DNA of 64,000 nt from contig CM049316.1 of NCBI GenBank assembly GCA_026874595.1, positions 68,782,676-68,846,675 of the forward strand, read 5' to 3'. Source of the DNA: Sipunculus nudus (lineage: Eukaryota > Annelida > Sipuncula > Golfingiida > Sipunculidae). A model generated the notes under the pieces. The model had not been told where the DNA came from. It made no database searches and worked only from the letters and a program-made list of their open reading frames with translations. Made by a program: the position numbers and the translations under genes. This document shows positions 508-61,743 of this stretch, piece by piece; positions within the stretch are counted from its first letter, which is position 1; every line of letters begins with the position of its first letter.

Positions 508-3500
508 GTATTTTCAGATTTGCTTTATTTCCCTTTTACCTAAGTTAAGTCTGTCATGAGTGGATGTGTTGTAGTATTTTTAGCTCAGCTGACTTTCCGT
601 CATGCTGAGTTATAGAGACCACCTTTGTTCTGGTATTCCCATATCTCCCTCCGCTAAAGCAATATACACTGTGTGTTATGCGTTAATTCTAAATGTTTAC
701 ACTGCATTGCCCAAGACTGTTCATACATTTCTAGATATTCCACGAGCATATTTGTTGGGAGTGGGAGAGTGAATGTTTCACAATAGTCCATCGAATAGGC
801 TATGTAGAGTATCATTCAAAGAGTGAATTCAATCTTGAAATACAAGGATTCTTTTTATTTATATACTAGCAGATAAATCCGGTAAACCAGGCTTTTTACT
901 GGGGTTGGGGAGATGTATTAATGGAGATAAGGAATTTGTGCTCATTTTTTTTATTCTAAAAGTTAAAAGACTCGAGTGATACTGTCTCAATAAGATATGT
1001 ACAAATATCTTTCCATTTACTTGGTGGCGCTGTGCTCTTGGCAAGAAATTCATACACCAGTATGTTGACCTTGAAGACCTGGTCAGTGACGATGTTTACA
1101 TTTGCAAAACAGAACAGGATGCAAGGGCATCAGATTTTTGAAGATATTTGACTGGTTACATACATTATTATTATTATTTATGTTAGACCTATAAAGGATA
1201 GATTGATGTAAGAAAGAATCATGAAAGATGAACAAAATGTATGTTTTAAGACAAGGAAGCTGATCCTAAAGAAAGAAACAGGAATATGCATACCTCGTTA
1301 GTTGCATAAGCGGGATCTGGACCCCCCCCCCCCCCACTTTTTTTCAGCTGCCGCAACCTTTCTGAAGGGTTTCAAAAACTCACTAAACGTAAGAAAACAA
1401 AGTTAAAAAAAATGATCAATTGATGAAGTCTTGATGGATGGCCTGCATGGCGGAGCACGGATTATCTGTATTAAGCACTGTTTGCCCCTGATGTCCTTGT
1501 TAACTTTAGGTTACATTCTCCCCACAGACGGTCTATCTATATGAATGTCAAGGAAAACCATGCGGCTAATATTCATCCGCACAGAAAGCTTTTATGCTGA
1601 AAATATGTCAATGCCAAGTGATAGTGCAGCGACACATGTTGCGGTCATTTCAACATTATGCAAACGGATATTACCTGAAAAATTGTGAAATTAACCATTT
1701 TTTCTAGTTCAGCTGACTGTAGGTCAACTGAGGTATAGGAATGGCGCTTTGTCCATCGACCGTTCGGCCGTCCGGTCGTCTGGCCGTCCGGTTGTCCGTT
1801 AGCAGGGCACAAATCATAACTGCTGGTCCTAGAAACTTCAAAGTGAACATCCAAGTAGGTCAATAAAAAACAATATATTAGCAGAAACTGACAAAAGCCC
1901 TCAGCCAAAAGAACAGTGTTTAGAGGTGGTAACAATAACAAGTACTAAATATCTGTTCTTACATGGATATATATCTGTACATGTCTCAGTTATAAATTTA
2001 AAATGGAGAGGTATGTACCATGATTCATAACAATCCACCAAATGCTTCCTGAAAAATAAGCTTCTAAGTTTTATTCTATTATAAGCTCTGTGACCTTGAA
2101 AAGTAAGTCAAGGTCACCCATCTTCAAACATCTTCACCAAAGATAAAATAAAATTCCTATTGTGAATCCTTTTAGAGGTATCTCGCTGCCAAGGCCAAAG
2201 TTGAAAAATCAAAGAAAAATTCATAAAAAATCAGAAATTGTAGGTGGCGCCCCTTAGCTTGTGCAGCAGTTACAGACCATCAGTCCCTATGATCATAGTA
2301 AGTATTGTAAAAATCCACCCAATGGTTCCTGAGAAATAAGCTTCTAAATGGTTTTCTATAATCGGCTCTAAAACGTTGAAAAATAGGTCAAGGTCACCCA
2401 TCTTCGAACTTGACCGAGATTTTGTCAATATACATCTTCACCGAAAAAAATAAAATTCCTACAGTGAATCCTTTTAGAGATATCCCGCTCACAAGCCCAA
2501 AGTTGAAAAATCTGATAAAAATTCATTAAAAATCAGTAATTGTAGGTGGCGCCACCAAACTTGCGTAACAGGTACAGACTATCAGTCCCAATAATCATAG
2601 TAAGTTTTGTGAAAATCCACCAAATGGTTCCTGAGTAATAAGCATCGAAGTGTTTTTCTATAATCAGCTCTAAAAAAGCCCGAACAAATACATGTGTGGC
2701 CACCAGGTTGCAGAAACTGATGAAACACTCCATGATCAATATCCATACAAACAATTATGGTGATCTCTGCATTAGCTGTTCAGATACTTCAGCTTTTGTA
2801 TCAAATTTTCCATTATTCTGAGCTGTATTTTGGAGTGCCATAGCTCAAAGGATATGGGTAACAGAGACCTAAATTCAGGTTTCCATGGAGACTTTCATGG
2901 GTCTCCGTGTGTGTCAAGAATGAAGATTCTAGGTCCAGTCGTTACAATTTGAACCCTGTTGACAGATAACTACATCCTTAAAGATCTCAAAAATAGAGAA
3001 GAAAAATTGAAAAAATTGAAAAATACAGGTGGCGCCACCAGTCTGCAGAAACTGATGAAACATCTCATGATCAATACGTATGCCAAAAATCATGACCATC
3101 AGTGATGTAGAGAAAAATAGAGAAAAAAAATGTAAAAATTTGAAAAATACAGGTGGTGCCACCAGTCTGCATAAACTGATGACAGATCTGATGATCAATA
3201 TGTATGCCAAAAATCATGACCATCAGTGATGTAGTTAATGAGATATTGAAGTATTCACTGTATTTGTATGAAATTTTTACTATTCTGGGGGGTACTTTGG
3301 GGCCCCATAGCTCAAAGGATACGGGTAACAGAGACCTAATTACTGGTTTCCATGGAGACTTTTCATAGGTCTCTCAGAATGTCTAGTCTTTACGATTTGT
3401 GCCCTGTTAACACATGTTCACATTTTAAAAGGTCTCTAAAATAGAGAAATAAATTAGTAAAAAAATTAAAAATTACAGGTGGCGCCACCAGTCTGCAGGG

Positions 3501-6500
3501 ACTGATGAAACGTCTCATGATCAATATGTATGCCAAAAATTATGACCATCAGTTATGCAGTTAATGAGATATTGAAGTTTTTGTATGAAATTTTTTACTA
3601 TTCTTGGAGGTACTTTGGGGCCCCATAGCTCGAAGGATATGTGTAACAGTGACCTAATTTCTGGTTTCCATGGAGACTTTTCATAGGCCTCTCAGAATGT
3701 CAAGAATGAAGGTTCTAGGTCCAGTCTTTACGATTTGTGCCTTGTTAACAGCGGTTCACCTTTTATTTAAGGTCTCAAAAATAGAGAAAAAAATTCGTGA
3801 AAAATAAAAAAAAAAAAATAGAGGTGGCGCACCCAGGCTGCAGAAACTGATGAAACACTCCATGATCAATATCCATGCAAACAATTATGGTGATCTCTGC
3901 ATTAGTTGTTCAGATACTTCTGCTTTTGTATCAAATTTTCCATTATTCTGAGCTGTACTTTGGAGTGCCACAGCTCAAAGGATATGGGTAACAGAGACCT
4001 AATTTCAGATTTTCATAGAGACTTTTCATGGGTCTCCCTGTGTGTCAAGAATGGAGATTCTAGGTCCAGTCGTTACAATTTGAACCCTGTTGACAGATAA
4101 CTACATCCTTAAAGGTCTCCAAAATAGAGAAAAAAAATTGTAAAAAATTTAAAAATACAGGTGGCGCCACCAGTCTGCAGAAACTGATGAAACATCTCAT
4201 GATCAATATGTATATCAAAAATCATGACCATCAGTGATGTAATTAATGAGATATTGAAGTTCTTTTATGAAATTTTTGACTATTCTGGTGGGTACTTTTG
4301 GGCCCCATAACTCGAAGGATATGGGTAACAGAGACCTAATTCCAAGTTTCCAAGGAGATTTTTCATGGACCACTCTGGATGTAAAGTAAGAAGATTCCAG
4401 GTCCAGCGGTTACGATTTGTACTTTTGTAACGGACAGACGGCCGGATGGCCGGACAGACGACGGACAAAGATTGATCGCTATAGCTCAGATGACTTACAG
4501 TCAGCTGAGCTAATAAAATTGATACAAAATCTTCAATATCTTGATAATTTATAATGCATGGATTGTCATGAAACTTGCCTTTAATATTGACCATGACTAG
4601 TTTTGTCAGTTCCCGAAAAGTGGTGGCGCCACCTGTATTTTTTCTAAATTTTACGAATATTTTTTTCTATTTTCTTTTACTATAAAATGACAACAATCAT
4701 GTCAATTTCTCAGCTGTGATTCCATCTAGTGTCCCAAAACCTGTTTTGTTTATTGATCACAAGTGGAAGCTCTGTCTGTTTGTTCATCTGTCTGTCTGTC
4801 TTTCCATCCGTCCATCCACACAAATTTGTTTCCAGATGATAACTCCAGGTTGGATTGACATATGGATTTCAGACATGACTTACACATGGCCAACCACTAA
4901 AGAAAGAATCTGTATGTTTTTGGGTCATGAGGTCAAAGATCAAGGTCATAAGACTCACTTATTTAAAAAGATTATGGCTGCATTTTAAGCCAAGCTTTTC
5001 ATCCCAAACTTTCTATTTTGCACATTTAGCTGACTTGCCAGTATAGGGAGAGCATAAATGAATTTGGGGTCACAAGGTCTAAGGTCAAGATCACAGGTGC
5101 CATCTGTTCACAAATTAGTTTCCAGATGATAACACCAGTTTAGTCTGACATATTGGTTTCAAACTTAACTTATATATGGCTCACCACGAAAGTAAGAACC
5201 CTGTCGATTTTGGGGTCCAAAGATCAAGGTCACAGAACCCATTTCTTTAAAAGAATTATGTATGCATTTCAAGCTAAATTTTTCATCAAAAACCTTCCAT
5301 CTTCAAGAAATTACTCACCTGCCAATAAGGAAAGATTCTTTTCAATGTTGGGTCATAGGTCAAAGGTCAAGGTCACAGGGCCCATCCATTCACAAATAAG
5401 TTTATGGGTGATAATTCTGCTTTGGCTAGACAGATTGGCTTCAAACTTGATTTATTAATGACTCACCACTTAAGTAAGAAACATATCAAGGAAAATAACT
5501 TCTCAGATGTTTTGGCCACAAGGTTGTTGGTTAAGGTCATAGGACCATCATTCTGAAAACATTTCTTAAAAAATATCCTGAAAGACAAACACAGCTGAGC
5601 GTTGAGACCCCTGGGTCTCTAGTTTTCTCTATTTTTGAGACCTTTAATGATGTGGTAATCTATTAACAAGATACATATCGTAACCATTAGATCTGGAATC
5701 TTCTAACTTGATTTCCAGGGAGGCCTATGAAAAATATCCTTAAAAACCTGATATTAGGTCTCTGTTACCCATATCCTTCGAGCTATGGGGCTCAGAAGTA
5801 CCCCCAAAATAATAAAAAAAATTGATACAAAAGCTCTAGTATCTGAACAAATAATGCATTGATCACCATGATTCTTTGCATGATTATTGATCATAGAGTG
5901 TTCATCATTTCCTGGAGGATAGTGGCGCCACCAGGATTTCTTTAGAATTTTTACTCATTTTTTTTCTCTATTTTTGAGGCTTTTTAAGATCATCCGTTAA
6001 CAGGGCACATATTGTAACAATTAGTCCTGGAATCTTCTAACTTAACATCCAGGGAGGACTGAAAATCTCCTTAAAAACCTTAAATTAGGTCTCTGTTACC
6101 CATATCCTCTGAGCTATGAGGCTCAGAAATACCCCCTAAATTTGAAAATTTGATACAAAACTCGAGTATCTGAACAACTAATGCATTGATCACCATGATT
6201 CTTTGCATGCGTATTGATCATGGAGTGTTACATCAGTTACTACAGACAGGTGGAGCCACCTGGATTTTTTTAGCAAACCTGTGAGTTTATGCGATGATGT
6301 GGCGTCGTCTGGCGTCTGTCGCCTGTCGTCCGTTGTCTTTACATTAACCCATACTATCTTGAAAACGGCAAGAGTTAGCATCACGAAATTTTATGCAAAA
6401 CATTAGTCAACTAAAACCTCTATCGAATGGGAAGCTGAATTTAGTCATATGCCATAACAGCCCATTTTAGCTCAGTGGCTACAAAGATCTTCTTCTCAAA

Positions 6501-9500
6501 AACAACTGGGCCAAATTTTCTTAAATCTCACACATCAATTGTCCTTGGATGTTGATAATTCAAGTTTATTTAAATGGTTTTGGTTCAGTGATATTTGGCT
6601 GAGTTAGGGGAAGCTTTACTTAGCCATTTTGCTGTATTTTCCTATATGAGTTATAAACCTGCAAAAGTTTTTCGTCTGACGCCACTGAGGCCAATTTGTT
6701 TAATATTTTACAAGAATAATCCCCTGAATAATTCTTATAATAATTGCCTTTAAGGTTCCAAAGAATGAATTTTGGCTGAATTATAAAGATTGAATTGAGT
6801 CATTTTACCATATATGTTAGCTGTGTGAAGCAGATAAATCTAGCCTGGCAACAGTTTATCAGCATCCATTACATCATGCCCCTAGATATTTAGATTTCAG
6901 GTTATCTATGATAAATATTGGCAAGAATGTTTTTCAAAAGCTTTAAAAAAGGAGATATATGATTTTAGATATCATCTGTACATTTACTCATAATTTCGCA
7001 GGAATAGCAGGAGCTACCATCCCCAGATTTGTCGCAATTATCTGTAACATTTCAAATCTTGTGGGATTTAGCTTCTTTTTGCTATCTGCATTTACTAAGA
7101 GTTTATAGGGAAAAAGCTGAAAAACCTTTAAAAGTCTTCTTCGTGTAAATGGTTCAGCCAAATTGTTCAATTTTTTACAGAAATGATCCCAGAGGCGAGC
7201 CCTCTCAAGTTTGTTCAAATGGTTTGTGTTTGAAAATTTTAACTGAGTTACATAAATTTAAACTTAGTCATTTGGCCAAGTAAGCATACCATTTGACATA
7301 GTAATCTGAGAAGTGACAGAAGCTAGCATTACCAAGTATTGTGGAAATGTTGGTCACATGACTCATATTTGAAATTGCAGATTTCGTGGTGCCACCTACA
7401 TTGACCTTTTTTATGGGCAAAAACCTCATAATATTAGCCTCTTTTAGCTTAAAAATTTTTATAAATAAACTGTCAAGTTGAATCGTTCAATTTTTCAAAA
7501 GAATTATCCTAGGACATGGTTCTGTCAATCATATAAGAGCAGATTGAGTTTGTTGATTTTTGGTTGAATCGTGAAAATCTCAAGTTTGTCTTATGGTCAT
7601 TATTATGTCTATTTCAAACTGAGGACAGCAATAGTGTTCTTCTACAAAATTGTTGTTTCAATTATAATTTCTGTAACATTGCACAAAGATTATTCTTAGG
7701 TGGCCTTTGTTCAAGTTTATTTGAATGATCTTTTGGCAGAATTATTGAACCTTTAACAAGAAAGGACTGCATCTTTTATTATTCTCGATATTTTGATAAA
7801 GGTGTTTATGAATATGTTAGCTTAAAAAAAATCAATTTTAGCCAAAGTCATTTAGTATGTGTAAACAGATTAACCAACAGGCCAAGATTGTGTCTGTATC
7901 TTGAATAGGTTGAGAAACTGCCAACTGTTTCAGATTTGGCAAGAGATCAAGAGTTCATTCAGTGCAGCCAGATATAGGTCAAGAGTTCAATCAGTGCAGC
8001 CAAGAATAAGGCATGTGATCACCTCATGAGCACCATGTGAACACCTCATGGGTAGCATGTGATCACCTCATGAGTATAATGTGATCACCTCATGGGTGAC
8101 ATGCCCCTCAGGGCTGCATGTGAAGCCAATCTGTGTGCTTATGCAATGGTGTAGCTACTATTTCAGATTTGGCAACAGGTCAAAGGTCAGTCTGGATCTA
8201 TTTATAGCTTTGGCAGACTGCCAACTGTATCAGATTAGGCAACAGGTAAAGAGTTCACTCAGTGCAGCCAGGTACAGGACAAAAGTTTACTCAGTCTATC
8301 CAGGTGCAGGTCAAGAGTTCACTAAGTGCAGTAGCCTGAGCCAGCAATTTATCACAGTTCACTCGATGCAATTGCCTTTCTCACCTAAGCCTGGTCAGCC
8401 CCGTGCATCAGACTCAAGGTAAGTTTGATGTATTGGCCTGATATTTTGACATGTCTATGTGTCTTTGATGGCTTTCTCGTTCACAAGACAGGTGTCACCA
8501 TCTACATATGACTTTTGTACAGTGTATGTGCCTGCTTATTTCTACGGAGGAATTTGATATATCAGCCTGAAATTTGGCATTTTTATACATTTCAAATAGC
8601 TCTGTCGTATACAAGACTGGTGGTGCCACCTACAATAATTTTTGCAAAGTGCGTGTACCTGTTTCTTTCTCAGGAGGGGTTTGATATATCAGTCTGAAAT
8701 TGGGCATATGTATATATCTCTGATAGCTTCTTTGTATACAAGACAGGTGGTGCCAGCTACAATCATATTTGTGATGTGTGTCAGAATATCAGCAGTGATG
8801 TTTGTGTAATTGTTTCTTGTTCAAAATGTTTAGTACTTGCATTGTTTATATATATGAAAAATAATGGTTCAGCATTGAAGCGTTAAACCTTGTGTATATT
8901 GCAATGCACAGGTTCACATTAGGCCTGTAGGCCTTGTATAAATTTCTCTATCAACCGTTAGGCAAAGTCAGCTGTGTACAACAATCCGTGGGTTCCTTGT
9001 TTCAAATGACTTATTAAGTCTACAATATATTTTATAAAGAGAGTGATATTAAATATTTATGTTTGTTAGACTTTATTACAGCTCAACATAATGTTCACAT
9101 AGCTTAATTGTCAAACAATGCATATAAAATCTTTTCTGCAATAAGTGAGACAATTTTTGTGAACATTTTCAATAAAGGTAGTTTATTCTGGATTTAGTTA
9201 TTCTATACATCCTCTCCTCCATGAAACTTTTTATTTCTTGATAGTGAGTTTCTGGTGCCAGCAGGCCAAATGATGCTGTTACGTGACCAGCTGGATAAGC
9301 TGAGTCCAGTTCAGGGACTGAGAAGTGAAGAGAAAGGTAAACAAACTTTTTTTACTTGTCATCCTGTCATAATATCTGAATTAATTGTTTGAGGGGTTCA
9401 TAATTTCAACATTTTATTTAAACAGAACTTTCTAATTGAATATGTTTGCATTTAATTTATGTGATTTTATTATTTAGATTCTATCTTTTAGTCTTACCAA

Positions 9501-12500
9501 CAGAAAAGTTTCATACTTATTCTGCAAAAATATTCTGAAGAATAACGGTTTAGCAGAAGTTTCTATTCACAATTTGGCTTTTGAATATGTATTGCTGTTT
9601 TTCTACTCAATGTTGTTGAGAGTTTCTTAACAGTTACGGGTAACATTGTTCTGTTTTAGATCCAGAAGAATTTCTCAATTGCTTGTTGAATCATGTTATG
9701 AAAGCGGAACCATTCGTCAGATTAAGGTAACAATGTAAATTTTCTTTTCTTTTTGTTCATATCCTAATCCTCGCCCCTTCCATCTTTCCATTTTGTGAAT
9801 CTCTCCTTCTTACTATCTCTCTTTCATACTTTTTTTAAATATACCGTTAAAGTGTGGCTCGTCATTTTCTTAAGTGGAATTGGTAGAAAGCCCTCATGAA
9901 TATAAGTATGTGTGCAGCATCATGCAAGCTGTTGTTCAAGATCTCTTGAGACCGCACTAAAACAGAGGTGCAAGGATGTCTAATTAATTCAAACATTCAG
10001 ATGGAAAGTTTAGTGGATGTTGTACAAACCACATACCATGCATTTCATGATCCAAAAAGCTGAGGACCTCACTTTGGCTATGATAATGGTATGTGTCAAG
10101 AAGTATGGTAGCAGACAACTCCTATGAACAAAGAACCCCAGTGGGGCATAGTAATAATATTCTTCTTCCCAGACATAGATGCCTTAGTTTTATACCTGAA
10201 GGGACGACAGTGCAACTCCAAAAAAGCCTGCTACATGATGGTATAATACAAAAGCTGTGCAGTGGTTTCTCTTTTATAAAGATTTATTTGACGTTTACAC
10301 ATGGCAGAATATTTTTTCCCTTTTGCTCTGCTGATCACACAGTTAAGTTCAATGACTGTGGACCACAGTAATTGTGAGTAACAAGAGTGGCAATTACATA
10401 TAATCCAAGTTGGGAAAGCATGCTTGTGCCCAAACCATGGCTAAAAACTGACTTTGAAATTCATCATTGTCACAGAAAAAATGCCACTAATCACCTTGCT
10501 GCATAAAAAAACTCCAGCATAACCAGTTTAAATCAACCACACCTTAGTTTCTCGATGAAAACTTACCAAGGTATTTTGCAATTTATTCATACAAATGGAT
10601 GGCCATAGGAGTACTGAGGATATCGATTTCTGCCCCCCCCCACCGCGCAGACACCCTACAGTAATCAAGATATCCATTTGTCCGTCTGTCAGGCAGTCGC
10701 ATTCTCTCAATAACTGTTCAAGCAATAAATATGAAAATTTACAGAAGATAAACAACTATGATTGTATCTGCAAGATAAAATTTCATACACATTTGAGAAT
10801 ATAACATGGCTTCCAGATAGCAGTCTTGTAATTCTATATGTTCCTACAAATTATCTCAAGAGTAGTTTCAGCAATGGTCCTGAAAAGATTGACATAAATT
10901 AGTGTATTGCCTCTATCAAATTTCAGAAATCCAGCATGGCCCCCAGAAGGTCAGCTTAGAATTCCTTTTGCTCACATTAATTTAAGAAATGTTCAGTTTG
11001 CTGTGTATTGCCTCTATCAAATTTCAGAAATCCAGCATGGCCCCCAGAAGGTCAGCTTAGACTTCCTTTTGCTCACATTAATTTAAGAAATGTTCAGTTT
11101 GCTGTGAATTTTTTACCCAAGATGACATTCATGATATCTAGAGCATGCCCACTATCAAATTCCAGACCCATCGGAAATCCAGTATGAACAATAGACAGAA
11201 ATATTGGAATTCTTTTCATGCACTTTATCTCAAGAACCTTTTGAGCAGTTGCCATGAAAATTTTACTGAGGAGTGACACCTGGGAGAGGATTTGCTCTTT
11301 AGAATTTCAGATATCTGTGGGACTTCCTTTTCCAAGTGTTACAGAGACAGCTAATAGAACAATGGAAATTAACATTAAACTGCTTTCAAGGAATAACAGT
11401 AACGTGTAAAAAAATCCAGCTACAATTATATGCAGTTATATAACTTGCATGCATTATTAATTTTATTGTCAGGATTTATTCGAGTTATAATGGGTTTTTC
11501 ATAGATGCTTATCACATGCCCTAAATATTCTCCTCCGTTGTGGATCCTGGATCTGCTCCTCACTGTAAACCCACACATTCAAGCTCATTGAACAATACTG
11601 GTATACACTGATCATCAATTATTTTTACAGTCTGATATGAAAGGATCTGTAGTGTTTATTCTTTTGCACCAATGCTTTAAGTGGTTAAGTATAGTTAGAT
11701 TGATCATCTAAGGGAGCCAGAACATTCCAACTATACCCTATCAAGCTTTTCCCAGCTTGCGTGTAAAGATATATAGAATATGTGGATCTTGTGTATAATA
11801 ACAGAAAAGAACAAAATTTTCACCTTATTGATTATTTTCCCATGTATTCTGAGCAACAAGTTTTGCCTTCTTTGTTTCATCTCTGATATATACCACTCCT
11901 TCCTTTCTATCAACGTACAGTTTTCGTGAGCAGAGGGGCATGCTTGTAAAATATGTCAGAAAGTGTAGAATTATATGCAGCTGACAGTTCGTCAAAAACT
12001 TCTTTATTATAATTGAGTAATCCACAATTAACAATGTTCTGCTTAAAATGTGTAATATTTATAGAATTTATCTTGCGAAAAGTATTTTTTTTTCTAAATC
12101 TTCCTCCCTCTAGAACATTAGATGCCCAAAACCGAACAGTGATCTGAAATGTATTCACCAGCCTTTAAATTGATCATTGTAATGTCAATGTTAAATCTGG
12201 TAACAATCAAATCAAATTTTTGGCCGGATGTATGTGTTAGATCTCTCAAATGATTTACAAAGTTCATGTTTTGCAACTAATTTTGTATCTCATGGGCATC
12301 GTAGTCAGTTTGTAATTCCATATGGGTATCAAAATCTCCAGCAATGATCAGGCCTTTACACATGACCACAGATTCCAAGAATTCACTAAATTTCTTATGA
12401 AATGTTCTGGTGGTAAGGGAATTGGGCAGACACCAATTACTCTAATAAATCTGGATTTATATCAGGACTCATGGCGCAAATTCACATGACTTTTTAGTTG

Positions 12501-15500
12501 GTAATATCCACATTTACAAGATCAAATTCCTGCCTATAAAGTAACCCCTATCCAACTCCAGTTCTACCCATTTGCAAAATGTAACTGATACGAAAACCCT
12601 CTTCATGTCGCTCAGTGTCAATTTCAGCTCTTCATATATCCTTTCAAAAACGTGGAAAAATGCTCCCACAATAATACCTGGCTGTTATGCACAGGCGCGT
12701 ACAGTTATGAGGGCAATTCATATAGATTACAGACTACATTGCCATGAACATATAAAATTTAAACTAATCTCATTTCCATATGCAAGAATTATTTAAGCCT
12801 TTTAGATAGCTTAGCACTGTGATCCATGGTCCCTTGTATTTTTTTGTCATCACACTGAATTCTACAAATGTCACACATTGCAACAAACATCTCATCAAAT
12901 AAGATTATTCATCACTATAATGCCATCTTCTGGTAACTACTAAGCTTCTAAGTTTTATTCTATTATAAGCTCTGTGACCTTGAAAGTAAGTCAAGGTCAC
13001 CCATCTTCAAACATCTTCACCAAAGATAAAATAAAATTCCTATCGTGAATCCTTTTAGAGGTATCCCGCTGCCAAGGCCAAAGTTGAAAAATCAAAGAAA
13101 AATTCATAAAAAATCAGAAATTGTAGGTGGCGCCCCTTAGCTTGTGCAGCAGTTACAGACCATCAGTCCCTATGATCATAGTAAGTATTGTAAAAATCCA
13201 CCCAATGGTTCCTGAGAAATAAGCTTCTAAATGGTTTTCTATAATCGGCTCTAAAACGTTGAAAAATAGGTCAAGGTCACCCATCTTCGAACTTGACCGA
13301 GATTTTGTCAATACACATCTTCACCGAAAAAAATAAAATTCCTACAGTGAATCCTTTGTGTGTGGCGCCACCAAACTTGCGTAACAGGTACAGACTATCA
13401 GTCCCAATAATCATAGTAAGTTTTGTGAAAATCCACCAAATGGTTCCTGAGTAATAAGCATCGAAGTGTTTTTCTATAATCAGCTCTAAAAAAGCCCGAA
13501 CAAATACATGTGTGGCCACCAGGTTGCAGAAACTGATGAAACACTCCATGATCAATATCCATACAAACAATTATGGTGATCTCTGCATTAGCTGTTCAGA
13601 TACTTCAGCTTTTGTATCAAATTTTCCATTATTCTGAGCTGTATTTTGGAGTGCCATAGCTCAAAGGATATGGGTAACAGAGACCTAAATTCAGGTTTCC
13701 ATGGAGACTTTCATGGGTCTCCGTGTGTGTCAAGAATGAAGATTCTAGGTCCAGTCGTTACAATTTGAACCCTGTTGACAGATAACTACATCCTTAAAGA
13801 TCTCAAAAATAGAGAAGAAAAATTGAAAAAATTGAAAAATACAGGTGGCGCCACCAGTCTGCAGAAACTGATGAAACATCTCATGATCAATACGTATGCC
13901 AAAAATCATGACCATCAGTGATGTGGTTAACGAGATATTGAAGTATTTGTATGAAATGTTTCACTTTTCTGGGGGGTACTTTGGGGCCCCATAGCTCGAA
14001 GAATATGGGTAACAGAGACCTAATTTCTGGTTTCAATGGAGACCTTTCATAGGCCTCTCAGAATGTCAAGAATGAAGGTTCTAGGTCCAGTCTTCACGAT
14101 TTGTGCCTTGTTAACAGATGTTCACATTTTTAAAGGTCTCAAAAATAGAAATATTCGTAAAAAAAAAAAAAAAAAAAAAAAATAGAGGTGGCGCACCCAG
14201 GCTGCAGAAACTGATGAAACACTCCATGATCAATATCCATGGAAACAATTATGGTGATCTCTGCATTAGTTGTTCAGATACTTCAGCTTTTGTATCAAAT
14301 TTTCCATTATCCTGAGCTGTACTTTGGAGTGCCTCAGTTCAAAGGATATGGGTAACAGAGACCTAATTTCAGGTTTTTAAGAGACTTTTCATGGGTCTCC
14401 CTGTGTGTCAAGAATGAAGATTCTAGGTCCAGTCGTTACAATTTGAACCCTGTTGACAGATAACTACATCCTTAATGGTCTCAAAAATAGAGAAAAAAAA
14501 ATGTAAAAATTTGAAAAATACAGGTGGTGCCACCAGTCTGCATAAACTGATGACAGATCTGATGATCAATATGTATGCCAAAAATCATGACCATCAGTGA
14601 TGTAGTTAATGAGATATTGAAGTTTTTGTACGCAAATTTTCACTATTCTGGGGAGTACTTTTGGGCCCCATAGCTCAAAGGATATGGTTAACAGAGACCT
14701 AATTTCCGGCTTCCATGGAGATTTTTTCATAGATCTCCTAGATTTTCAAGAATGAAGATTTTAGGTCCAATCTTTACGATTTGTGCCCTGGTAACAGATG
14801 TTCACATTTCTAAAGGTCTCTAAAATAGAGAAAAAAAAATCGTAAAAAAATAAAAAATACAGGTGGCGCCACCAGTCTGCAGGAACTGATGAAACATCTC
14901 ATGATCAATATGTATGCCAAAAATCATGACCATCAGTGATGTTGTTAATGAGATATTGAAGTTTTTGTATGAAATTTTTCACTATTCTGGGGGGTACTTT
15001 GGGGCCCCATAGCTCGAAGGATATGTGTAACAGAGACCTAATTTCTGGTTTCCATGGAGACCTTTCATAGGCTTCTCAGAATATCAAGAATGAAGGCTCT
15101 AGGTCCAGTCTTTACGATTTGTGCTTTGTTAACAACGGTCCACATTTTTAAAGGTCTCAAAAATAGGGAGAAAAATGCGTAAAAAAAAAAAATAAAAAAA
15201 AAAAAAAATGGAGGTGGCGCACCAAGGCTGCAGAAACTGATGAAACACTCCATGATCAATATCCATGCAAACAATTATGGTGATCTCTGCATTAGTTGTT
15301 CAGATACTTCAGCTTTTGTATCGAATTTTCCATTATTCTGAGCTGTATTTGGAGTGCCACTGTTCAAAGGGTACGGGTAACAGAGACCTAATTTCAGGTT
15401 CCATAGAGACTTTTCATGGGTCTCCCTGTGTGTCAAGAATGAAGATTCTAGCTCCAGTCGTTACAATTTGAACCCTGTTGACAGATAACTACATCCTTAA

Positions 15501-18500
15501 AGGTCTCAAAAATAGAGAAAAAAAAATGTAAAAATTTGAAAAATACAGGTGGTGCCACCAGTCTGCATAAACTGATGACAGATCTGATGATCAATATGTA
15601 TGCCAAAAATCATGACCATCAGTGATGTAGTTAATGAGATATTGAAGTATTCACTGTATTTGTATGAAATTTTTACTATTCTGGGGGGTACTTTGGGGCC
15701 CCATAGCTCAAAGGATACGGGTAACAGAGACCTAATTACTGGTTTCCATGGAGACTTTTCATAGGTCTCTCAGAATGTCTAGTCTTTACGATTTGTGCCC
15801 TGTTAACACATGTTCACATTTTAAAAGGTCTCTAAAATAGAGAAATAAATTAGTAAAAAAATTAAAAATTACAGGTGGCGCCACCAGTCTGCAGGGACTG
15901 ATGAAACGTCTCATGATCAATATGTATGCCAAAAATTATGACCATCAGTTATGCAGTTAATGAGATATTGAAGTTTTTGTATGAAATTTTTTACTATTCT
16001 TGGAGGTACTTTGGGGCCCCATAGCTCGAAGGATATGTGTAACAGTGACCTAATTTCTGGTTTCCATGGAGACTTTTCATAGGCCTCTCAGAATGTCAAG
16101 AATGAAGGTTCTAGGTCCAGTCTTTACGATTTGTGCCTTGTTAACAGCGGTTCACCTTTTATTTAAGGTCTCAAAAATAGAGAAAAAAATTCGTGAAAAA
16201 TAAAAAAAAAAAAATAGAGGTGGCGCACCCAGGCTGCAGAAACTGATGAAACACTCCATGATCAATATCCATGCAAACAATTATGGTGATCTCTGCATTA
16301 GTTGTTCAGATACTTCTGCTTTTGTATCAAATTTTCCATTATTCTGAGCTGTACTTTGGAGTGCCACAGCTCAAAGGATATGGGTAACAGAGACCTAATT
16401 TCAGATTTTCATAGAGACTTTTCATGGGTCTCCCTGTGTGTCAAGAATGGAGATTCTAGGTCCAGTCGTTACAATTTGAACCCTGTTGACAGATAACTAC
16501 ATCCTTAAAGGTCTCCAAAATAGAGAAAAAAAATTGTAAAAAATTTAAAAATACAGGTGGCGCCACCAGTCTGCAGAAACTGATGAAACATCTCATGATC
16601 AATATGTATATCAAAAATCATGACCATCAGTGATGTAATTAATGAGATATTGAAGTTCTTTTATGAAATTTTTGACTATTCTGGTGGGTACTTTTGGGCC
16701 CCATAACTCGAAGGATATGGGTAACAGAGACCTAATTCCAAGTTTCCAAGGAGATTTTTCATGGACCACTCTGGATGTAAAGTAAGAAGATTCCAGGTCC
16801 AGCGGTTACGATTTGTACTTTTGTAACGGACAGACGGCCGGATGGCCGGACAGACGACGGACAAAGATTGATCGCTATAGCTCAGATGACTTACAGTCAG
16901 CTGAGCTAATAAAATTGATACAAAATCTTCAATATCTTGATAATTTATAATGCATGGATTGTCATGAAACTTGCCTTTAATATTGACCATGACTAGTTTT
17001 GTCAGTTCCCGAAAAGTGGTGGCGCCACCTGTATTTTTTCTAAATTTTACGAATATTTTTTTCTATTTTCTTTTACTATAAAATGACAACAATCATGTCA
17101 ATTTCTCAGCTGTGATTCCATCTAGTGTCCCAAAACCTGTTTTGTTTATTGATCACAAGTGGAAGCTCTGTCTGTTTGTTCATCTGTCTGTCTGTCTTTC
17201 CATCCGTCCATCCACACAAATTTGTTTCCAGATGATAACTCCAGGTTGGATTGACATATGGATTTCAGACATGACTTACACATGGCCAACCACTAAAGAA
17301 AGAATCTGTATGTTTTTGGGTCATGAGGTCAAAGATCAAGGTCATAAGACTCACTTATTTAAAAAGATTATGGCTGCATTTTAAGCCAAGCTTTTCATCC
17401 CAAACTTTCTATTTTGCACATTTAGCTGACTTGCCAGTATAGGGAGAGCATAAATGAATTTGGGGTCACAAGGTCTAAGGTCAAGATCACAGGTGCCATC
17501 TGTTCACAAATTAGTTTCCAGATGATAACACCAGTTTAGTCTGACATATTGGTTTCAAACTTAACTTATATATGGCTCACCACGAAAGTAAGAACCCTGT
17601 CGATTTTGGGGTCCAAAGATCAAGGTCACAGAACCCATTTCTTTAAAAGAATTATGTATGCATTTCAAGCTAAATTTTTCATCAAAAACCTTCCATCTTC
17701 AAGAAATTACTCACCTGCCAATAAGGAAAGATTCTTTTCAATGTTGGGTCATAGGTCAAAGGTCAAGGTCACAGGGCCCATCCATTCACAAATAAGTTTA
17801 TGGGTGATAATTCTGCTTTGGCTAGACAGATTGGCTTCAAACTTGATTTATTAATGACTCACCACTTAAGTAAGAAACATATCAAGGAAAATAACTTCTC
17901 AGATGTTTTGGCCACAAGGTTGTTGGTTAAGGTCATAGGACCATCATTCTGTAAACATTTCTTAAAAAATATCCTGAAAGACAAACACAGCTGAGCGTTG
18001 AGACCCCTGGGTCTCTAGTTTTCTCTATTTTTGAGACCTTTAATGATGTGGTAATCTATTAACAAGATACATATCGTAACCATTAGATCTGGAATCTTCT
18101 AACTTGATTTCCAGGGAGGCCTATGAAAAATATCCTTAAAAACCTGATATTAGGTCTCTGTTACCCATATCCTTCGAGCTATGGGGCTCAGAAGTACCCC
18201 CAAAATAATAAAAAAAATTGATACAAAAGCTCTAGTATCTGAACAAATAATGCATTGATCACCATGATTCTTTGCATGATTATTGATCATAGAGTGTTCA
18301 TCATTTCCTGGAGGATAGTGGCGCCACCAGGATTTCTTTAGAATTTTTACTCATTTTTTTTCTCTATTTTTGAGGCTTTTTAAGATCATCCGTTAACAGG
18401 GCACATATTGTAACAATTAGTCCTGGAATCTTCTAACTTAACATCCAGGGAGGACTGAAAATCTCCTTAAAAACCTTAAATTAGGTCTCTGTTACCCATA

Positions 18501-21500
18501 TCCTCTGAGCTATGAGGCTCAGAAATACCCCCTAAATTTGAAAATTTGATACAAAACTCGAGTATCTGAACAACTAATGCATTGATCACCATGATTCTTT
18601 GCATGCGTATTGATCATGGAGTGTTACATCAGTTACTACAGACAGGTGGAGCCACCTGGATTTTTTTAGCAAACCTGTGAGTTTATGCGATGATGTGGCG
18701 TCGTCTGGCGTCTGTCGCCTGTCGTCCGTTGTCTTTACATTAACCCATACTATCTTGAAAACGGCAAGAGTTAGCATCACGAAATTTTATGCAAAACATT
18801 AGTCAACTAAAACCTCTATCGAATGGGAAGCTGAATTTAGTCATATGCCATAACAGCCCATTTTAGCTCAGTGGCTACAAAGATCTTCTTCTCAAAAACA
18901 ACTGGGCCAAATTTTCTTAAATCTCACACATCAATTGTCCTTGGATGTTGATAATTCAAGTTTTGGTTCAGTGATATTTGGCTGAGTTAAGGGAAGCTTT
19001 ACTTAGCCATTTTGCTGTATTTTCCAATATGAGTTATAAACCTGCAAAAGTTTTTCGTCTGACGCCACTGAGGCCAATTTGTTTAATATTTTACAAGAAT
19101 AATCCCCTGAATAATTCTTATAATAATTGCCTTTAAGGTTCCAAAGAATGAATTTTGGCTGAATTATAAAGATTGAATTGAGTCATTTTACCATATATGT
19201 TAGCTGTGTGAAGCAGATAAATCTAGCCTGGCAACAGTTTATCAGCATCCATTACATCATGCCCCTAGATATTTAGATTTCAGGTTATCTATGATAAATA
19301 TTGGCAAGAATGTTTTTCAAAAGCTTTAAAAAAGGAGATATATGATTTTAGATATCATCTGTACATTTACTCATAATTTCGCAGGAATAGCAGGAGCTAC
19401 CATCCCCAGATTTGTCGCAATTATCTGTAACATTTCAAATCTTGTGGGATTTAGCTTCTTTTTGCTATCTGCATTTACTAAGATTTTATAGGGAAAAAGC
19501 TGAAAAACCTTTAAAAGTCTTCTTCGTGTAAATGGTTCAGCCAAATTGTTCAATTTTTTACAGAAATGATCCCAGAGGCGAGCCCTCTCAAGTTTGTTCA
19601 AATGGTTTGTGTTTGAAAATTTTAACTGAGTTACATAAATTTAAACTTAGTCATTTGGCCAAGTAAGCATACCATTTGACATAGTAATCTGAGAAGTGAC
19701 AGAAGCTAGCATTACCAAGTATTGTGGAAATGTTGGTCACATGACTCATATTTGAAATTGCAGATTTCGTGGTGCCACCTACATTGACCTTTTTTATGGG
19801 CAAAAACCTCATAATATTAGCCTCTTTTAGCTTAAAAATTTTTATAAATAAACTGTCAAGTTGAATCGTTCAATTTTTCAAAAGAATTATCCTAGGACAT
19901 GGTTCTGTCAATCATATAAGAGCAGATTGAGTTTGTTGATTTTTGGTTGAATCGTGAAAATCTCAAGTTTGTCTTATGGTCATTATTATGTCTTTTTCAA
20001 ACTGAGGACAGCAATAGTGTTCTTCTACAAAATTGTTGTTTCAATTATAATTTCTGTAACATTGCACAAAGATTATTCTTAGGTGGCCTTTGTTCAAGTT
20101 TATTTGAATGATCTTTTGGCAGAATTATTGAACCTTTAACAAGAAAGGACTGCATCTTTTATTATTCTCGATATTTTGATAAAGGTGTTTATGAATATGT
20201 TAGCTTAAAAAAAATCAATTTTAGCCAAAGTCATTTAGTATGTGTAAACAGATTAACCAACAGGCCAAGATTGTGTCTGTATCTTGAATAGGTTGAGAAA
20301 CTGCCAACTGTTTCAGATTTGGCAAGAGATCAAGAGTTCATTCAGTGCAGCCAGATATAGGTCAAGAGTTCAATCAGTGCAGCCAAGAATAAGGCATGTG
20401 ATCACCTCATGAGCACCATGTGAACACCTCATGGGTAGCATGTGATCACCTCATGAGTATAATGTGATCACCTCATGGGTGACATGCCCCTCAGGGCTGC
20501 ATGTGAAGCCAATCTGTGTGCTTATGCAATGGTGTAGCTACTATTTCAGATTTGGCAACAGGTCAAAGGTCAGTCTGGATCTATTTATAGCTTTGGCAGA
20601 CTGCCAACTGTATCAGATTAGGCAACAGGTAAAGAGTTCACTCAGTGCAGCCAGGTACAGGACAAAAGTTTACTCAGTCTATCCAGGTGCAGGTCAAGAG
20701 TTCACTAAGTGCAGTAGCCTGAGCCAGCAATATATCACAGTTCACTCGATGCAATTGCCTTTCTCACCTAAGCCTGGTCAGCCCCGTGCATCAGACTCAA
20801 GGTAAGTTTGATGTATTGGCCTGATATTTTGACATGTCTATGTGTCTTTGATGGCTTTCTCGTTCACAAGACAGGTGTCACCATCTACATATGACTTTTG
20901 TACAGTGTATGTGCCTGCTTATTTCTACGGAGGAATTTGATATATCAGCCTGAAATTTGGCATTTTTATACATTTCAAATAGCTCTGTCGTATACAAGAC
21001 TGGTGGTGCCACCTACAATAATTTTTGCAAAGTGCGTGTACCTGTTTCTTTCTCAGGAGGGGTTTGATATATCAGTCTGAAATTGGGCATATGTATATAT
21101 CTCTGATAGCTTCTTTGTATACAAGACAGGTGGTGCCAGCTACAATCATATTTGTGATGTGTGTCAGAATATCAGCAGTGATGTTTGTGTAATTGTTTCT
21201 TGTTCAAAATGTTTAGTACTTGCATTGTTTATATATATGAAAAATAATGGTTCAGCATTGAAGCGTTAAACCTTGTGTATATTGCAATGCACAGGTTCAC
21301 ATTAGGCCTGTAGGCCTTGTATAAATTTCTCTATCAACCGTTAGGCAAAGTCAGCTGTGTACAACAATCCGTGGGTTCCTTGTTTCAAATGACTTATTAA
21401 GTCTACAATATATTTTATAAAGAGAGTGATATTAAATATTTATGTTTGTTAGACTTTATTACAGCTCAACATAATGTTCACATAGCTTAATTGTCAAACA

Positions 21501-24500
21501 ATGCATATAAAATCTTTTCTGCAATAAGTGAGACAATTTTTGTGAACATTTTCAATAAAGGTAGTTTATTCTGGATTTAGTTATTCTATACATCCTCTCC
21601 TCCATGAAACTTTTTATTTCTTGATAGTGAGTTTCTGGTGCCAGCAGGCCAAATGATGCTGTTACGTGACCAGCTGGATAAGCTGAGTCCAGTTCAGGGA
21701 CTGAGAAGTGAAGAGAAAGGTAAACAAACTTTTTTTACTTGTCATCCTGTCATAATATCTGAATTAATTGTTTGAGGGGTTCATAATTTCAACATTTTAT
21801 TTAAACAGAACTTTCTAATTGAATATGTTTGCATTTAATTTATGTGATTTTATTATTTAGATTCTATCTTTTAGTCTTACCAACAGAAAAGTTTCATACT
21901 TATTCTGCAAAAATATTCTGAAGAATAACTGTTTAGCAGAAGTTTCTATTCACAATTTGGCTTTTGAATATGTATTGCTGTTTTTCTACTCAATGTTGTT
22001 GAGAGTTTCTTAACAGTTACGGGTAACATTGTTCTGTTTTAGATCCAGAAGAATTTCTCAATTGCTTGTTGAATCATGTTATATAGGCGGAACCATTCGT
22101 CAGATTAAGGTAACAATGTAAATTTTCTTTTCTTTTTGTTCATATCCTAATCCTCGCCCCTTCCATCTTTCCATTTTGTGAATCTCTCCTTCTTACTATC
22201 TCTCTTTCATACTTTTTTTAAATATACCGTTAAGGTGTGGCTCGTCATTTTCTTAAGTGGAATTGGTAGAAAGCCCTCATGAATATAAGTATGTGTGCAG
22301 CATCATGCAAGCTGTTGTTCAAGATCTCTTGAGACCGCACTAAAACAGAGGTGCAAGGATGTCTAATTAATTCAAACATTCAGATGGAAAGTTTAGTGGA
22401 TGTTGTACAAACCACATACCATGCATTTCATGATCCAAAAAGCTGAGGACCTCACTTTGGCTATGATAATGGTATGTGCAAGAAGTATGGTAGCAGACAA
22501 CTCCTATGAACAAAGAACCCCAGTGGGGCATAGTAATAATATTCTTCTTCCCAGACATAGATGCCTTAGTTTTATACCTGAAGGGACGACAGTGCAACTC
22601 CAAAAAAGCCTGCTACATGATGGTATAATACAAAAGCTGTGCAGTGGTTTCTCTTTTATAAAGATTTATTTGACGTTTACACATGGCAGAATATTTTTTC
22701 CCTTTTGCTCTGCTGATCACACAGTTAAGTTCAATGACTGTGGACCACAGTAATTGTGAGTAACAAGAGTGGCAATTACATATAATCCAAGTTGGGAAAG
22801 CATGCTTGTGCCCAAACCATGGCTAAAAACTGACTTTGAAATTCATCATTGTCACAGAAAAAATGCCACTAATCACCTTGCTGCATAAAAAAACTCCAGC
22901 ATAACCAGTTTAAATCAACCACACCTTAGTTTCTCGATGAAAACTTACCAAGGTATTTTGCAATTTATTCATACAAATGGATGGCCATAGGAGTACTGAG
23001 GATATCGATTTCTGCCCCCCCCCCCCCCCACCGCGCAGACACCCTACAGTAATCAAGATATCCATTTGTCCGTCTGTCAGGCAGTCGCATTCTCTCAATA
23101 ACTGTTCAAGCAATAAATATGAAAATTTACAGAAGATAAACAACTATGATTGTATCTGCAAGATAAAATTTCATACACATTTGAGAATATAACATGGCTT
23201 CCAGATAGCAGTCTTGTAATTCTATATGTTCCTACAAAATATCTCAAGAGTAGTTTCAGCAATGGTCCTGAAAAGATTGACATAAATTAGTGTATTGCCT
23301 CTATCAAATTTCAGAAATCCAGCATGGCCCCCAGAAGGTCAGCTTAGAATTCCTTTTGCTCACATTAATTTAAGAAATGTTCAGTTTGCTGTGTATTGCC
23401 TCTATCAAATTTCAGAAATCCAGCATGGCCCCCAGAAGGTCAGCTTAGACTTCCTTTTGCTCACATTAATTTAAGAAATGTTCAGTTTGCTGTGAATTTT
23501 TTACCCAAGATGACATTCATGATATCTAGAGCATGCCCACTATCAAATTCCAGACCCATCGGAAATCCAGTATGAACAATAGACAGAAATATTGGAATTC
23601 TTTTCATGCACTTTATCTCAAGAACCTTTTGAGCAGTTGCCATGAAAATTTTACTGAGGAGTGACACCTGGGAGAGGATTTGCTCTTTAGAATTTCAGAT
23701 ATCTGTGGGACTTCCTTTTCCAAGTGTTACAGAGACAGCTAATAGAACAATGGAAATTAACATTAAACTGCTTTCAAGGAATAACAGTAACGTGTAAAAA
23801 AATCCAGCTACAATTATATGCAGTTATATAACTTGCATGCATTATTAATTTTATTGTCAGGATTTATTCGAGTTATAATGGGTTTTTCATAGATGCTTAT
23901 CACATGCTCTAAATATTCTCCTCCGTTGTGGATCCTGGATCTGCTCCTCACTGTAAACCCACACATTCAAGCTCATTGAACAATACTGGTATACACTGAT
24001 CATCAATTATTTTTACAGTCTGATATGAAAGGATCTGTAGTGTTTATTCTTTTGCACCAATGCTTTAAGTGGTTAAGTATAGTTAGATTGATCATCTAAG
24101 GGAGCCAGAACATTCCAACTATACCCTATCAAGCTTTTCCCAGCTTGCGTGTAAAGATATATAGAATATGTGGATCTTGTGTATAATAACAGAAATTTAA
24201 ATTTGCAGATTGTCATTTCTGTGCCTCTTTAACATCTGTGTTCATTCTGTACTGGTACAGGTACTTTACTGATACAGGCCCTTGCACTTGAGATGTCTTG
24301 CATAAATTTGTTTTGCATTTTTGCATGACTGGAAAGTGCTGGTGGTCATATTTTGCTTCTAGTGGTGATGACAACATACTTTGGAAATGACACAACATTA
24401 ATGCTTGGTGCATTGTTCTGAAAATAATTCTAGACAAATATTTTTTTTCATTGACAAATATGAATCTTTTAACAAAAAGAAATTTCCTTCTTGCTTTTCA

Positions 24501-25922
24501 AGAATATTTCAGAGAATATTTAAATGAAGATTAGGTCTTTTGAATGTATGATTTAAGGAATCTAATAACTGAAATATCCCATATTACATTACAATTTTAT
24601 TACAAAAATTAACCTTGTTTTATGTGTTTTAGACATATAAAAATATTGAAATTGTAATAAACATCATTATTGATAGCCTTTGCTATATTGCAGAATGCTT
24701 GGAGGAAATACATAGATATCTGCAATTTACTAAGGTTAAAGACTGACACATTTAACTGGTAAATTATGTTAATATATTTTAGACTTTATTAAATATAAAA
24801 ACATGTCATTGCACCTGTCACACAAACCAGTGAAATATAAATTGTGTTCTTGACTGTCATTTCCAGCTCTGGGGAAAATTGCTATTTTTACCAACTGTTT
24901 GTGGAAAAATGAGAGCTTGATCATGCCTACCACACAAAGACTTCTTTGCCTCTCATTCATGTATTTAAATGTCAAATTTGAGGAGGTATGTGAATATAGA
25001 TATTACTGTTTACAGATTTGAGATAAGATGACAATGTTGAATCTGAATGCAAAGCAGATAATGCTGCTTTGATGATATTGTTTTAAAAATTACTGTCATC
25101 ATATACTAAATAAAGTGGAATATTACTCTCGTAACAAAATATGTTATATAACAGTAGAGTGTAACATTTCTCCTCTTTTGACCAGAAAAAATGCAAGCAT
25201 TTGGATGTAACCATTGAATGTGTTATGAAAGCTGAAGCACAGTTTGTGCAAATTAATTTTAAGACTTCCATTTATTTTCATATTGAAAACAACAAAGCAC
25301 ATACAGCAGTTGTGTGACCACATAACAATCAAATGATCTGGGTTGGAAATATTTTCTCCTTTCTAAACCCTTATATAGTATGTTAAAATTAGTGAACCTA
25401 TGGAACATAGGAGTATTATTATTTCTTTACAAAAAAGGTTGAAAATAATATGAGGGCAAGTATTTGTCACTATATTAAAAATGAGTTTTATATATAAATT
25501 GATAAACACAATTCAAAATGTGGCCTTAAAAGGGATAAGATTATTATAAAATAGATTGAATCGGATGAACCATATATAAAGATCCTCTGTTTTCAGATCA
25601 AATTTCCTTTAAAGACTTTCAAGTTAGCATCAAGAAAGAAATACTCTAAGCTCAGCTTACTTTCAACCACGCTTAGCCCTGGTGATTGCAAATCTATCTA
25701 GATGTCAAGTTATCTGTTAGCAATTCATAAATAGTTACCTTTTACCCTAAAAATTCCCCCCTTTATATCCAGACAGGTAATTGTGAAATGTCTTTTAAAA
25801 CCAGAAATTAGGTGTTAGTAGTCTGTATTCTGTAAAGTATTGGACAACTCATAGATATTCAAGGCTGTTGAACAAAAATCGAGCAGTGAGTCACAAAATT
25901 GCAGGGAATAAAATATCATATG

Positions 25923-46285: not shown

Positions 46286-47107
46286 TTTAACTGTAATTAG
46301 ACCTTTGAATCCTTAATTCCACATAGAGCTAGATGCCAGTAAGTTCTAACAAACCCAAAATTGGATCACTGCAGTTTCGATCTTTAGATATGAAGCGAAA
46401 ATCTCCATTTTTCACACACAAAAAAACAATTGTTACATTTTTCAGATTGCCCATTATTAAAACCACTGGAAATGTTTTGTTCAAAGTTAGCATGTATGGT
46501 CCTTAGTATATTTCCTATGCACTTGCTAGAAACTAGGTCAATATTGCTTACGTTATAGAAGTTACGGATCCAAACATAATATACCCTGTCAAAACAATCA
46601 CCTATCTCACCTTTAAAAACTAAAGGTAATCCCTTTGAGCTTTTATATGAATAGGCCTAGGTAAGAAAATGTGGATATCACTGCAAACAGGCTGTTTGTT
46701 TTGATTATATCAACGTGTTACAATATATAAGGGCCCACCAAAATAAATCAAATTCAGCAAGGGCATTTGGCAGCAAGTCATATAAGCCCGAGCTTTGCAA
46801 ATGGTGTTTTGGGAGAAGTGTCCTTTCTAACTCCGCATATATGCAGCCTACCACCTTCGGTTACATTTTTTTTCCCCGTTTGCCAACATTGCTGTGTTTA
46901 CAAACATGTTGATAAATACGTTCATACATCCTTCACGAAGGCGTTATAAGAATTTTTCACAATCAAAATTACCCTTCGGTCATTAATATATGCAAAGAGG
47001 AGGCCAGAAATCACAAATTCTTTTTCAAAAGGTAGGTGATTGGGCATCTATGAATTTTGTCATACTTTGAATATGGTAGGCCTACATTTTCCCCATGAGC
47101 CCTTTGT
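46286..47107 (+). other. Intergenic with old A3-like remnant
   Basis: Positions 46,290-46,640 resemble A3 body (compare 27,290-27,500). The rest is unassigned. Confidence 0.4.
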
Positions 47108-49692: not shown

Positions 49693-49866
49693 TTAATTTC
49701 CACAATTTGTACACATATGGATTAAATCTTTTATAATCTAAATATTGAAAGCAATCAGTCAAACAATGTAGCTTTTATTTAAGTTTACACCACCAAGTCA
49801 AATATTGTTTACATCAGGAAAGCCCACAATGGTATGCACAGTAAGTGTAACTGATGTACTTTATTT

Positions 49867-50393
49867 TTTTGCGAACCTGTAAGTTTAAGCGATGGCGTGG
49901 CGTCCGTCCGCCGTCCATGGCTGTAGGTCAGAAACCGTCGGAGCTACAGCTCCAAATTACGTGTAATAATTAGTCACATGTAAAACTTGGTGCCCTAGAG
50001 CTTATTATTGGGTATCTGCATTAATTTAGATTTTATAGAGAAAAAAGCTTTAAAACCTTTAAAAATCTTCTTCTCTGAAACCTTCCAGCCAAATTGTCCA
50101 ATATTTCACAGAAATGATCCTTAGAACAATTTCTCGCAAATTTGTTTGAATGGCTCCAGTTCGGTGATTTTTGGCCGAGTTACAGGAGGTGTAACTTAGT
50201 CATCTGTGCAAAAAAGCATATTAAACTTAAAATATCTGAAACAGCTGGAGCTGTCATCACCAAATTTTATGCCAATGTTTGTCACATGATTCATATCTGA
50301 AATTGAGGTGTTGGTGGCGCCACCAACATTGATCTGTTTTTTACAAGCAAAAATGTAAGTTTAGACTCTTTTAGCTTATACACTGTTTTTTTT
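49867..50393 (+). mobile_element. Family B element, 5' part only
   Basis: Head gcgaacctgtaag at 49,872 with gtccgtccgccgtcc and body to about 50,390. It is cut off at a T-run where a family A head begins. Confidence 0.65.
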
Positions 50394-61207: not shown

Positions 61208-61743
61208 GTAGGTGAACCCCTACATATAGATCAAGCGTGCTTCTTATCATATTTGTTTAATTTAAGATTGCAGCCAATGTCTTAAGAGTCTTGCATTCAG
61301 TTTCTAAAGCCTTATTGATACTTTATAATATGAGGTTGTATTTAAACTTCATATTATTAGATTGTATTCAGAGACAGACGTTTTACATTTCTAAACTTCA
61401 GGTAAATGTCAGGATAATCCCGATCCCAACCACCCTTTCATCATTACCTGGTTAAATTGAAGCATTCGAATAATCCTTTTTACAATCTATGAAAGGGATA
61501 ATCTTACATATTCATCTCTTATGATCCTGTTTTTATCCTTAAAAATTGTGGAAAGGGATGATCCGGATTTATTTTTTAGGTAAACTGATGTTTATTCAGA
61601 AAAGATGTTTCAGCATTTTTAGGTTTGAGTTAGGAATGAATGACATGCTTACATATTACGTTTTGAACAGGAAGAAGTAACTATTGCTGGTAGTGAAGGA
61701 GCATACATGAAGTTTAGGTTATTGGACTTTCCAACAGAGATCG
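60251..61743 (+). CDS. TRIM-like RING/B-box/coiled-coil protein, 5' exons
   Basis: ATG at 60251 (context caaaATGg) is preferred over the in-frame TTG at 60233. Exon 1 (60251-61207) and exon 2 (61671-61743) join in phase 0. Residues 16-61 form a RING: C16, C19, C33, H35, C41, C58 and C61, but R38 stands where the fifth ligand is normally Cys. Residues 97-137 form a first B-box (C97, C100, C113, C116, C121, C124, H128, H137). Residues 150-182 form a second (C150, H153, C161, C164, C171, C174, H182). A charged helical coiled coil spans about 190-319. Such proteins are usually cytoplasmic E3 ligases, often in innate immunity. The C-terminal domain was not found, so the gene is incomplete here. 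Confidence 0.85.
61671..61743 (+). CDS. TRIM-like gene exon 2
   Basis: The acceptor is ttttgaacag and the donor is gtgagt at 61744. The frame reads EEVTIAGSEGAYMKFRLLDF then PTEI, and ends in phase 1. Phase agrees with exon 1. No specific domain is visible in 24 residues. Confidence 0.6.

Follow-up and report, generated by a model that had tools for sequence, protein, structure and literature searches.

An exon pair of CYLD occurs twice in the assembled Sipunculus nudus genome, with a stop codon in the second copy

RESULTS

A block containing two CYLD exons is present in two adjacent, near-identical copies

We analyzed a stretch of 64,000 nucleotides from Sipunculus nudus (GenBank assembly GCA_026874595.1, contig CM049316.1, positions 68,782,676 to 68,846,675 of the forward strand; "the window," with positions counted from its first base). 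Here part of the CYLD gene is assembled with two neighboring exons in duplicate, and the second copy of this exon pair is interrupted by an in-frame stop codon. We hold it to be about an even call that the copies represent a real, recent, and possibly polymorphic direct segmental duplication inside CYLD with a dead second cassette. This reading was judged, not computed, to stand narrowly ahead of an assembly artifact.

Comparison of the window with itself (self-blastn and mafft alignment) resolved two direct copies of a block on the plus strand, copy 1 at 2057 to 11807 (9,751 bp) and copy 2 at 12941 to 24195 (11,255 bp), lying 1,133 bp apart. Each contains a tandem repeat array, and ~1.58 kb of array sequence is found in copy 2 only. 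To the right of the array (copy 1 positions 4421 to 11807), we counted 13 mismatches over 7,373 aligned bases and three indel events (99.82% identity); to its left (2057 to 2988), the 864 aligned bases contain five mismatches (99.4%), of which two adjoin a 67-bp indel. When both nonarray parts were pooled, the copies differed at 18 of 8,237 aligned bases (99.78% identity), in agreement with the ~99.8% given for the sequence outside the array in the initial annotation. Copy 2 is without a 67-bp and a 13-bp stretch that copy 1 has, and the smaller differences comprise one change in the length of a C run and two single-base indels. Judged by the length and identity of the match, the similarity between the copies is beyond chance. 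As assembled, these are adjacent, same-strand copies of neighboring exons of CYLD, the arrangement that characterizes an intragenic tandem exon-pair duplication. No N occurs in any of the 64,000 bases, so no gap separates copy 1 from copy 2.

By hand count, eight of the 13 mismatches to the right of the array were transversions and five were transitions, a high transversion share in a small sample. Both copies also carry a 101-bp tandem doubling with 98% identity (10902 to 11110 and again 23290 to 23498), and this doubling therefore probably predates the duplication of the block.

The duplicated exons belong to the USP domain of CYLD

Eight CYLD exons, all on the plus strand, were modeled and numbered within the window only (E1 to E8); the N-terminal CAP-Gly domains of full-length CYLD would be encoded upstream of it. 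E1 (252 to 507) has a donor phase that fits both copies of the following exon. Copy 1 of the block holds E2 (9245 to 9336; 92 bp) and E3 (9660 to 9726; 67 bp), the latter intact and carrying a DPEEF motif. Copy 2 holds E2' (21628 to 21719), which is identical to E2, and E3' (22043 to 22109). Beyond the block lie E4 (24867 to 24985; 119 bp), E5 (26881 to 26989), E6 (33101 to 33222), which encodes part of the B-box, E7 (35023 to 35254), which carries the sequence FFDSMADRE, and E8 (37482 to 37678), which encodes the C-terminus and the stop codon. The introns between E1 and E8 have AG/GT borders, and their phases agree except through E4. The splice-site flanks of the pair, compared over the 14 bases preceding and the 8 bases following each exon, do not differ between copy 1 and copy 2.

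Spliced together with one X at a frameshift in E4, E1 to E8 matched the CYLD USP structure 2vhf_A with an E value of 2.5e-102 (query residues 2 to 364); we take 2vhf to be the human CYLD USP structure. The Pfam family UCH was matched by E1 to E5 at 29.3 bits (cut-off, 23.9). The active-site motifs of E1 and E7, together with FFDSMADRE, align to 2vhf, with the catalytic Cys presumably in the motif of E1 and the catalytic His in that of E7. A B-box is present inside the USP domain, its Cys and His residues in E6 and E7 aligning to those of 2vhf, where we presume that they act as ligands. By these comparisons, the USP domain is well conserved apart from the lesions in E3' and E4, and CYLD is its best match. 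No Rfam family was matched at gathering scores within the 64-kb window.

The second copy of the pair is closed by a stop codon, and E4 is frameshifted

Phase 2 applies both on entry into E2 and on exit from E3, so that the pair (92 + 67 = 159 bp) is phase-symmetric, as the initial annotation had described for a recent direct duplication; both the alignment and the exon phases confirmed this description. Substitution between tandem duplicated exons presupposes such symmetry and, in addition, that both copies are coding. The first property was found (the 159-bp pair starts and ends in phase 2); the second was not, owing to an in-frame TAG in E3'. Relative to E3, E3' has three mismatches within 4 bases (copy 1 positions 9700, 9701, and 9703), which convert Met-Lys to Ile-stop and place the TAG at 22084 to 22086. 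When 13 changes were placed at random in 200,000 trials, three fell within four bases at a frequency of 0.0001. The copy 1 state of E3 is the original one, as its open frame and its match to 2vhf and relatives of 2vhf indicate.

A second lesion lies in E4, which is CYLD-like in one frame up to VEK and in another frame thereafter. The break falls at a run of five A residues (24905 to 24909), where there is one base fewer than the protein alignment requires, and a TGA follows at 24910 to 24912 (positions hand-counted). Because the shifted E4 lies outside the duplication, the plain order E1-E2-E3-E4 is broken as well, and the continuous open reading frame expected of an intact CYLD gene is interrupted by this one-base frameshift. 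The shift may be an error, a null allele, or the mark of a pseudogene.

Most exon selections terminate early

We translated all 16 order-keeping selections of E2, E3, E2', and E3' between E1 and E4 to E8, with E4 as assembled. Early termination occurred in 13 of the 16. With both pairs included (E1-E2-E3-E2'-E3'-E4), translation from the start of E1 runs for 182 residues to the TAG in E3'; with E2'-E3' and without the copy 1 pair, it stops at the same TAG after 129 residues; and with E2-E3 and without the copy 2 pair, it stops in E4 after 152 residues. The other three selections (E2, E2', and E2-E3-E2') are open through the C-terminal stop only because, in each, an unpaired E2 or E2' ahead of E4 compensates for the frameshift. 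Translation of E4 then begins with 13 residues in a foreign frame, and we take the openness of these three selections as a coincidence.

Phase symmetry had led to the proposal that the duplicated pair might yield a longer USP domain or alternative cassettes. That proposal overlooked both the TAG in E3' and the E4 shift, and it is contradicted by the stops at 182 and 129 residues: given the TAG, inclusion of the whole second pair cannot lengthen the USP domain and the copies cannot serve as two working alternative cassettes, so that both outcomes are ruled out for the sequence analyzed here. Nonsense-mediated decay triggered by a stop codon upstream of exon junctions is an established rule, and with the stop in E3' followed by five exon junctions, such decay would be expected for the double-pair message.

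We consider it very improbable that the extra cassette is in use, whether as a regulated poison pair or in an E1-E2-E3-E2'-E4 isoform that skips E3' alone. The intact splice-site flanks of copy 1 and copy 2 are consistent with use, and E2-E3-E2'-E4 is one of the three selections that stay open to the C-terminal stop. However, this selection is open only since omission of the 67-bp E3' compensates for the frameshift in E4; it would put the first 13 residues of E4 in the foreign frame and add ~30 residues to the USP domain. A further idea is that, after a real duplication, the E3' stop was favored since it turned a harmful double-cassette message into a decay target, making the pair a splicing-controlled off switch (a poison cassette) for CYLD. 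We rate this as a long shot. The sole cluster of three changes in four bases among the 18 nonarray mismatches falls in one of the two short exons, which together make up 159 of the ~8,200 aligned bases; its position in an exon, spotted after the fact, bears on the poison-cassette idea and is at least suggestive.

The two lesions also raise the question of whether CYLD had previously become a pseudogene or null on this haplotype, in which case the E4 shift would be real and both the duplication and the stop would have been unconstrained. This explanation overlaps with both the real and the artifactual reading of the duplication. It draws on the coincidence of two lesions in one gene, the TAG in E3' and the E4 shift, and on the early termination of 13 of the 16 exon selections. 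Against it, E1 to E3 and E5 to E8 have uninterrupted frames and AG/GT borders, and the gene retains its active-site motifs, the Cys and His residues of the B-box, and its C-terminal stop; any loss of CYLD would therefore be very young. In addition, homopolymer-length errors are described as the most frequent errors left in bacterial assemblies built from long reads only (PMC8812927). On balance, we regard prior loss of the gene as unlikely, without being far-fetched. If the E4 shift is also real, the CYLD copy assembled here would be a young pseudogene or null allele.

The copies are joined by filler sequence at a novel junction

Between the copies lies a 1,133-bp filler (11808 to 12940, minus strand), probably a decayed, stop-ridden antisense fragment of a long interspersed nuclear element (LINE) that comprises endonuclease and linker sequence. 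This identification comes mostly from reading frames read by eye: the matches to the Pfam family Exo_endo_phos_2 (21.1 and 21.5 bits) lie below the cut-off of 27.4, with weaker unrelated matches alongside, and the linker peptide matched no Pfam family. By blastn, the filler had no other match in the window at an E value of 1e-3 and thus matched neither flank. The window also contains a LINE reverse transcriptase fragment (38782 to 40617, minus strand; 611 codons; RVT_1). We rejected the filler as a second piece of this element, as six-frame tblastn against the rest of the window gave a sole match with an E value of 0.84 at 33.8 kb. We also set aside the filler as a whole inserted element, since, as read by eye, it has endonuclease and linker sequence but lacks a reverse transcriptase portion.

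The edges of the block are informative about which junction is new. Copy 1 begins within a repeat unit that is present twice more just inside the block and that runs uninterrupted across 2056/2057; where copy 2 begins, this unit is truncated and abuts the filler. Because the unit is intact at copy 1 and cut at copy 2, the junction between the filler and copy 2 is new and that between the left flank and copy 1 native.

Repeats of the duplicated block recur at 47103 to 52409 in a different order and with ~71 to 92% identity, and we used these diverged repeats (47 to 52 kb) as an outgroup to polarize the differences between the copies. Of seven differences examined, sites 5556 and 7611 were not covered by the outgroup and site 6607 was uninformative. 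The other four were polarized: copy 2 has the derived state for the 13-bp deletion and at sites 6643 and 8349, and copy 1 has it at site 7101. Comparison by eye with the neighboring unit suggests that the 67-bp deletion, too, arose in copy 2. Private derived changes are thus present in both copies.

The tandem array occupies 2989 to 4419 in copy 1 and 13502 to 16816 in copy 2, with units of ~340 bp in both; the extra ~1.58 kb of copy 2 corresponds to 13925 to 15507. We compared 17 200-bp windows of array sequence with their three best partners and excluded the one at 15502 to 15701, which is shared with copy 1. For 14 of the remaining 16 (starts at 13902 to 15402), the best-scoring other unit was at most 96% identical. 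Most of the extra units thus seem too diverged for a recent expansion, which we set aside for most of the extra length, and copy 1 has probably lost ~1.58 kb of array.

A false duplication is the closest competing explanation

The copies could instead be the two alleles of one block that a misjoin in repeat-derived sequence placed one after the other, with the TAG being a null allele or an error. The initial annotation had treated such haplotype redundancy as an equal explanation; it is still a live alternative, which we rank below a real duplication and hold at somewhat under an even chance. Mismatches of ~0.2%, indels, and a change in array length are all compatible with two alleles, the sequence at the join is probably repeat-derived, and the E4 shift hints at an imperfect consensus. 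Exon-adding false duplications are documented, with 7 to 24% on the same scaffold (PMC9516828). That paper has such pairs mostly separated by gaps and sometimes joined by wrong filling, whereas the window has no gap; the gap expected between heterotype false duplicates was not found (0 N), and a gap filled wrongly could still account for its absence. It also links false duplication to relative heterozygosity and read errors, whereas the divergence here looks low. Further, the sequence preceding copy 2 is filler and not the left flank, and the small indels between the copies are few (two single-base indels and one C-run difference). Among the marks of false duplication, the same source lists half depth, gaps, discordant reads, and single-copy k-mers, and it includes a case in which a real duplication on one haplotype also gave half depth (PMC9516828).

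In favor of a real event, the continuous sequence, the novel junction with apparently captured filler, and the private changes in both copies together lend support at the level of the assembled DNA. Several observations weigh against it. Two alleles could show private differences like those of the copies. The E4 shift in the A run may be a consensus error, in which case other features could be errors too. Two of the 16 extra array windows have a partner with 99% identity. A source for the filler, as expected for capture by template switching, was not found within the window. Finally, no exact match covering the changed bases of the E3' cluster was found up to ~600 bp from E3 in copy 1 (words of 7 to 14, both strands), nor elsewhere in the window (words of 9 to 18, both strands); with no template in either place, we rejected a local template switch as the origin of the cluster.

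Other features of the window

Between 2545 and 50713, 20 distinct sites carry the 12-base motif GGTGGNGCCACC (33 matches over both strands; mean of 0.00 in 100 shuffles), and the sequence at 13 of these 20 sites is the perfect palindrome GGTGGCGCCACC. At 60230 to 61285, a 351-codon open frame encodes a RING protein, probably of the TRIM type, with matches to zf-RING_UBOX and zf-C3HC4 above the cut-off and B-box matches below it.

DISCUSSION

If the duplication is real, ~10 kb reaching from one intron across E2 and E3 into the next intron would have been duplicated side by side, and 1.13 kb of probable LINE sequence would have been picked up where the copies meet, as in template switching or in end joining with filler. 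Copy 1 would be the parental copy, and copy 2 would be a dead passenger cassette. Splicing that includes both pairs would bring the stop in E3' into the message, which would then be degraded by nonsense-mediated decay. Production of the normal enzyme would require that E2' and E3' be skipped and, in addition, that the one-base shift in E4 be a sequence error.

A real duplication would be a very young intragenic one; a stop would have closed its frame-neutral cassette before any divergence of the copies, and the CYLD pair would exemplify how such an exon-pair duplication can end. If false, it would clearly illustrate an apparent exon gain of the sort that checking against reads should eliminate ahead of gene modeling. 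In either case, phase symmetry alone is insufficient for a usable cassette.

Variation in exon content is known for CYLD itself: mammalian isoforms without exon 7 and, in mouse, without exons 7 and 8 have been described (PMC10320722). We take these exons to lie upstream of the part of the gene seen in the window. Among the matches listed in searches of the CYLD literature, no title reports an exon duplication in this gene.

Duplication of neighboring exons within a gene is a known kind of event. Adjacent, near-identical blocks that add exons, like the CYLD block, are also described among assembly false duplications (PMC9516828); the CYLD copies differ in having no gap between them. A close parallel is dmrt1 of Solea senegalensis, in which a neighboring exon pair (exons II and III) is likewise duplicated within one gene, in the order I-II-III-II'-III'-IV-V (PMC7605655). 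A cloned complementary DNA of the sole gene has both pairs in order, whereas E3' of CYLD has a stop and is known here from DNA only. Exon 10 of the alternative oxidase of Crassostrea virginica provides another tandem exon duplication in an invertebrate gene; the oyster copies are expressed, divergent, and alternatively used (PMC5589949), whereas those of CYLD are near-identical and one is dead. Human tandem duplicated exons resemble the CYLD pair in that alternative use would keep the frame. In contrast, the human events are mostly ancient, with both copies coding (PMC9741552), while the CYLD pair is young and its copies are not both coding.

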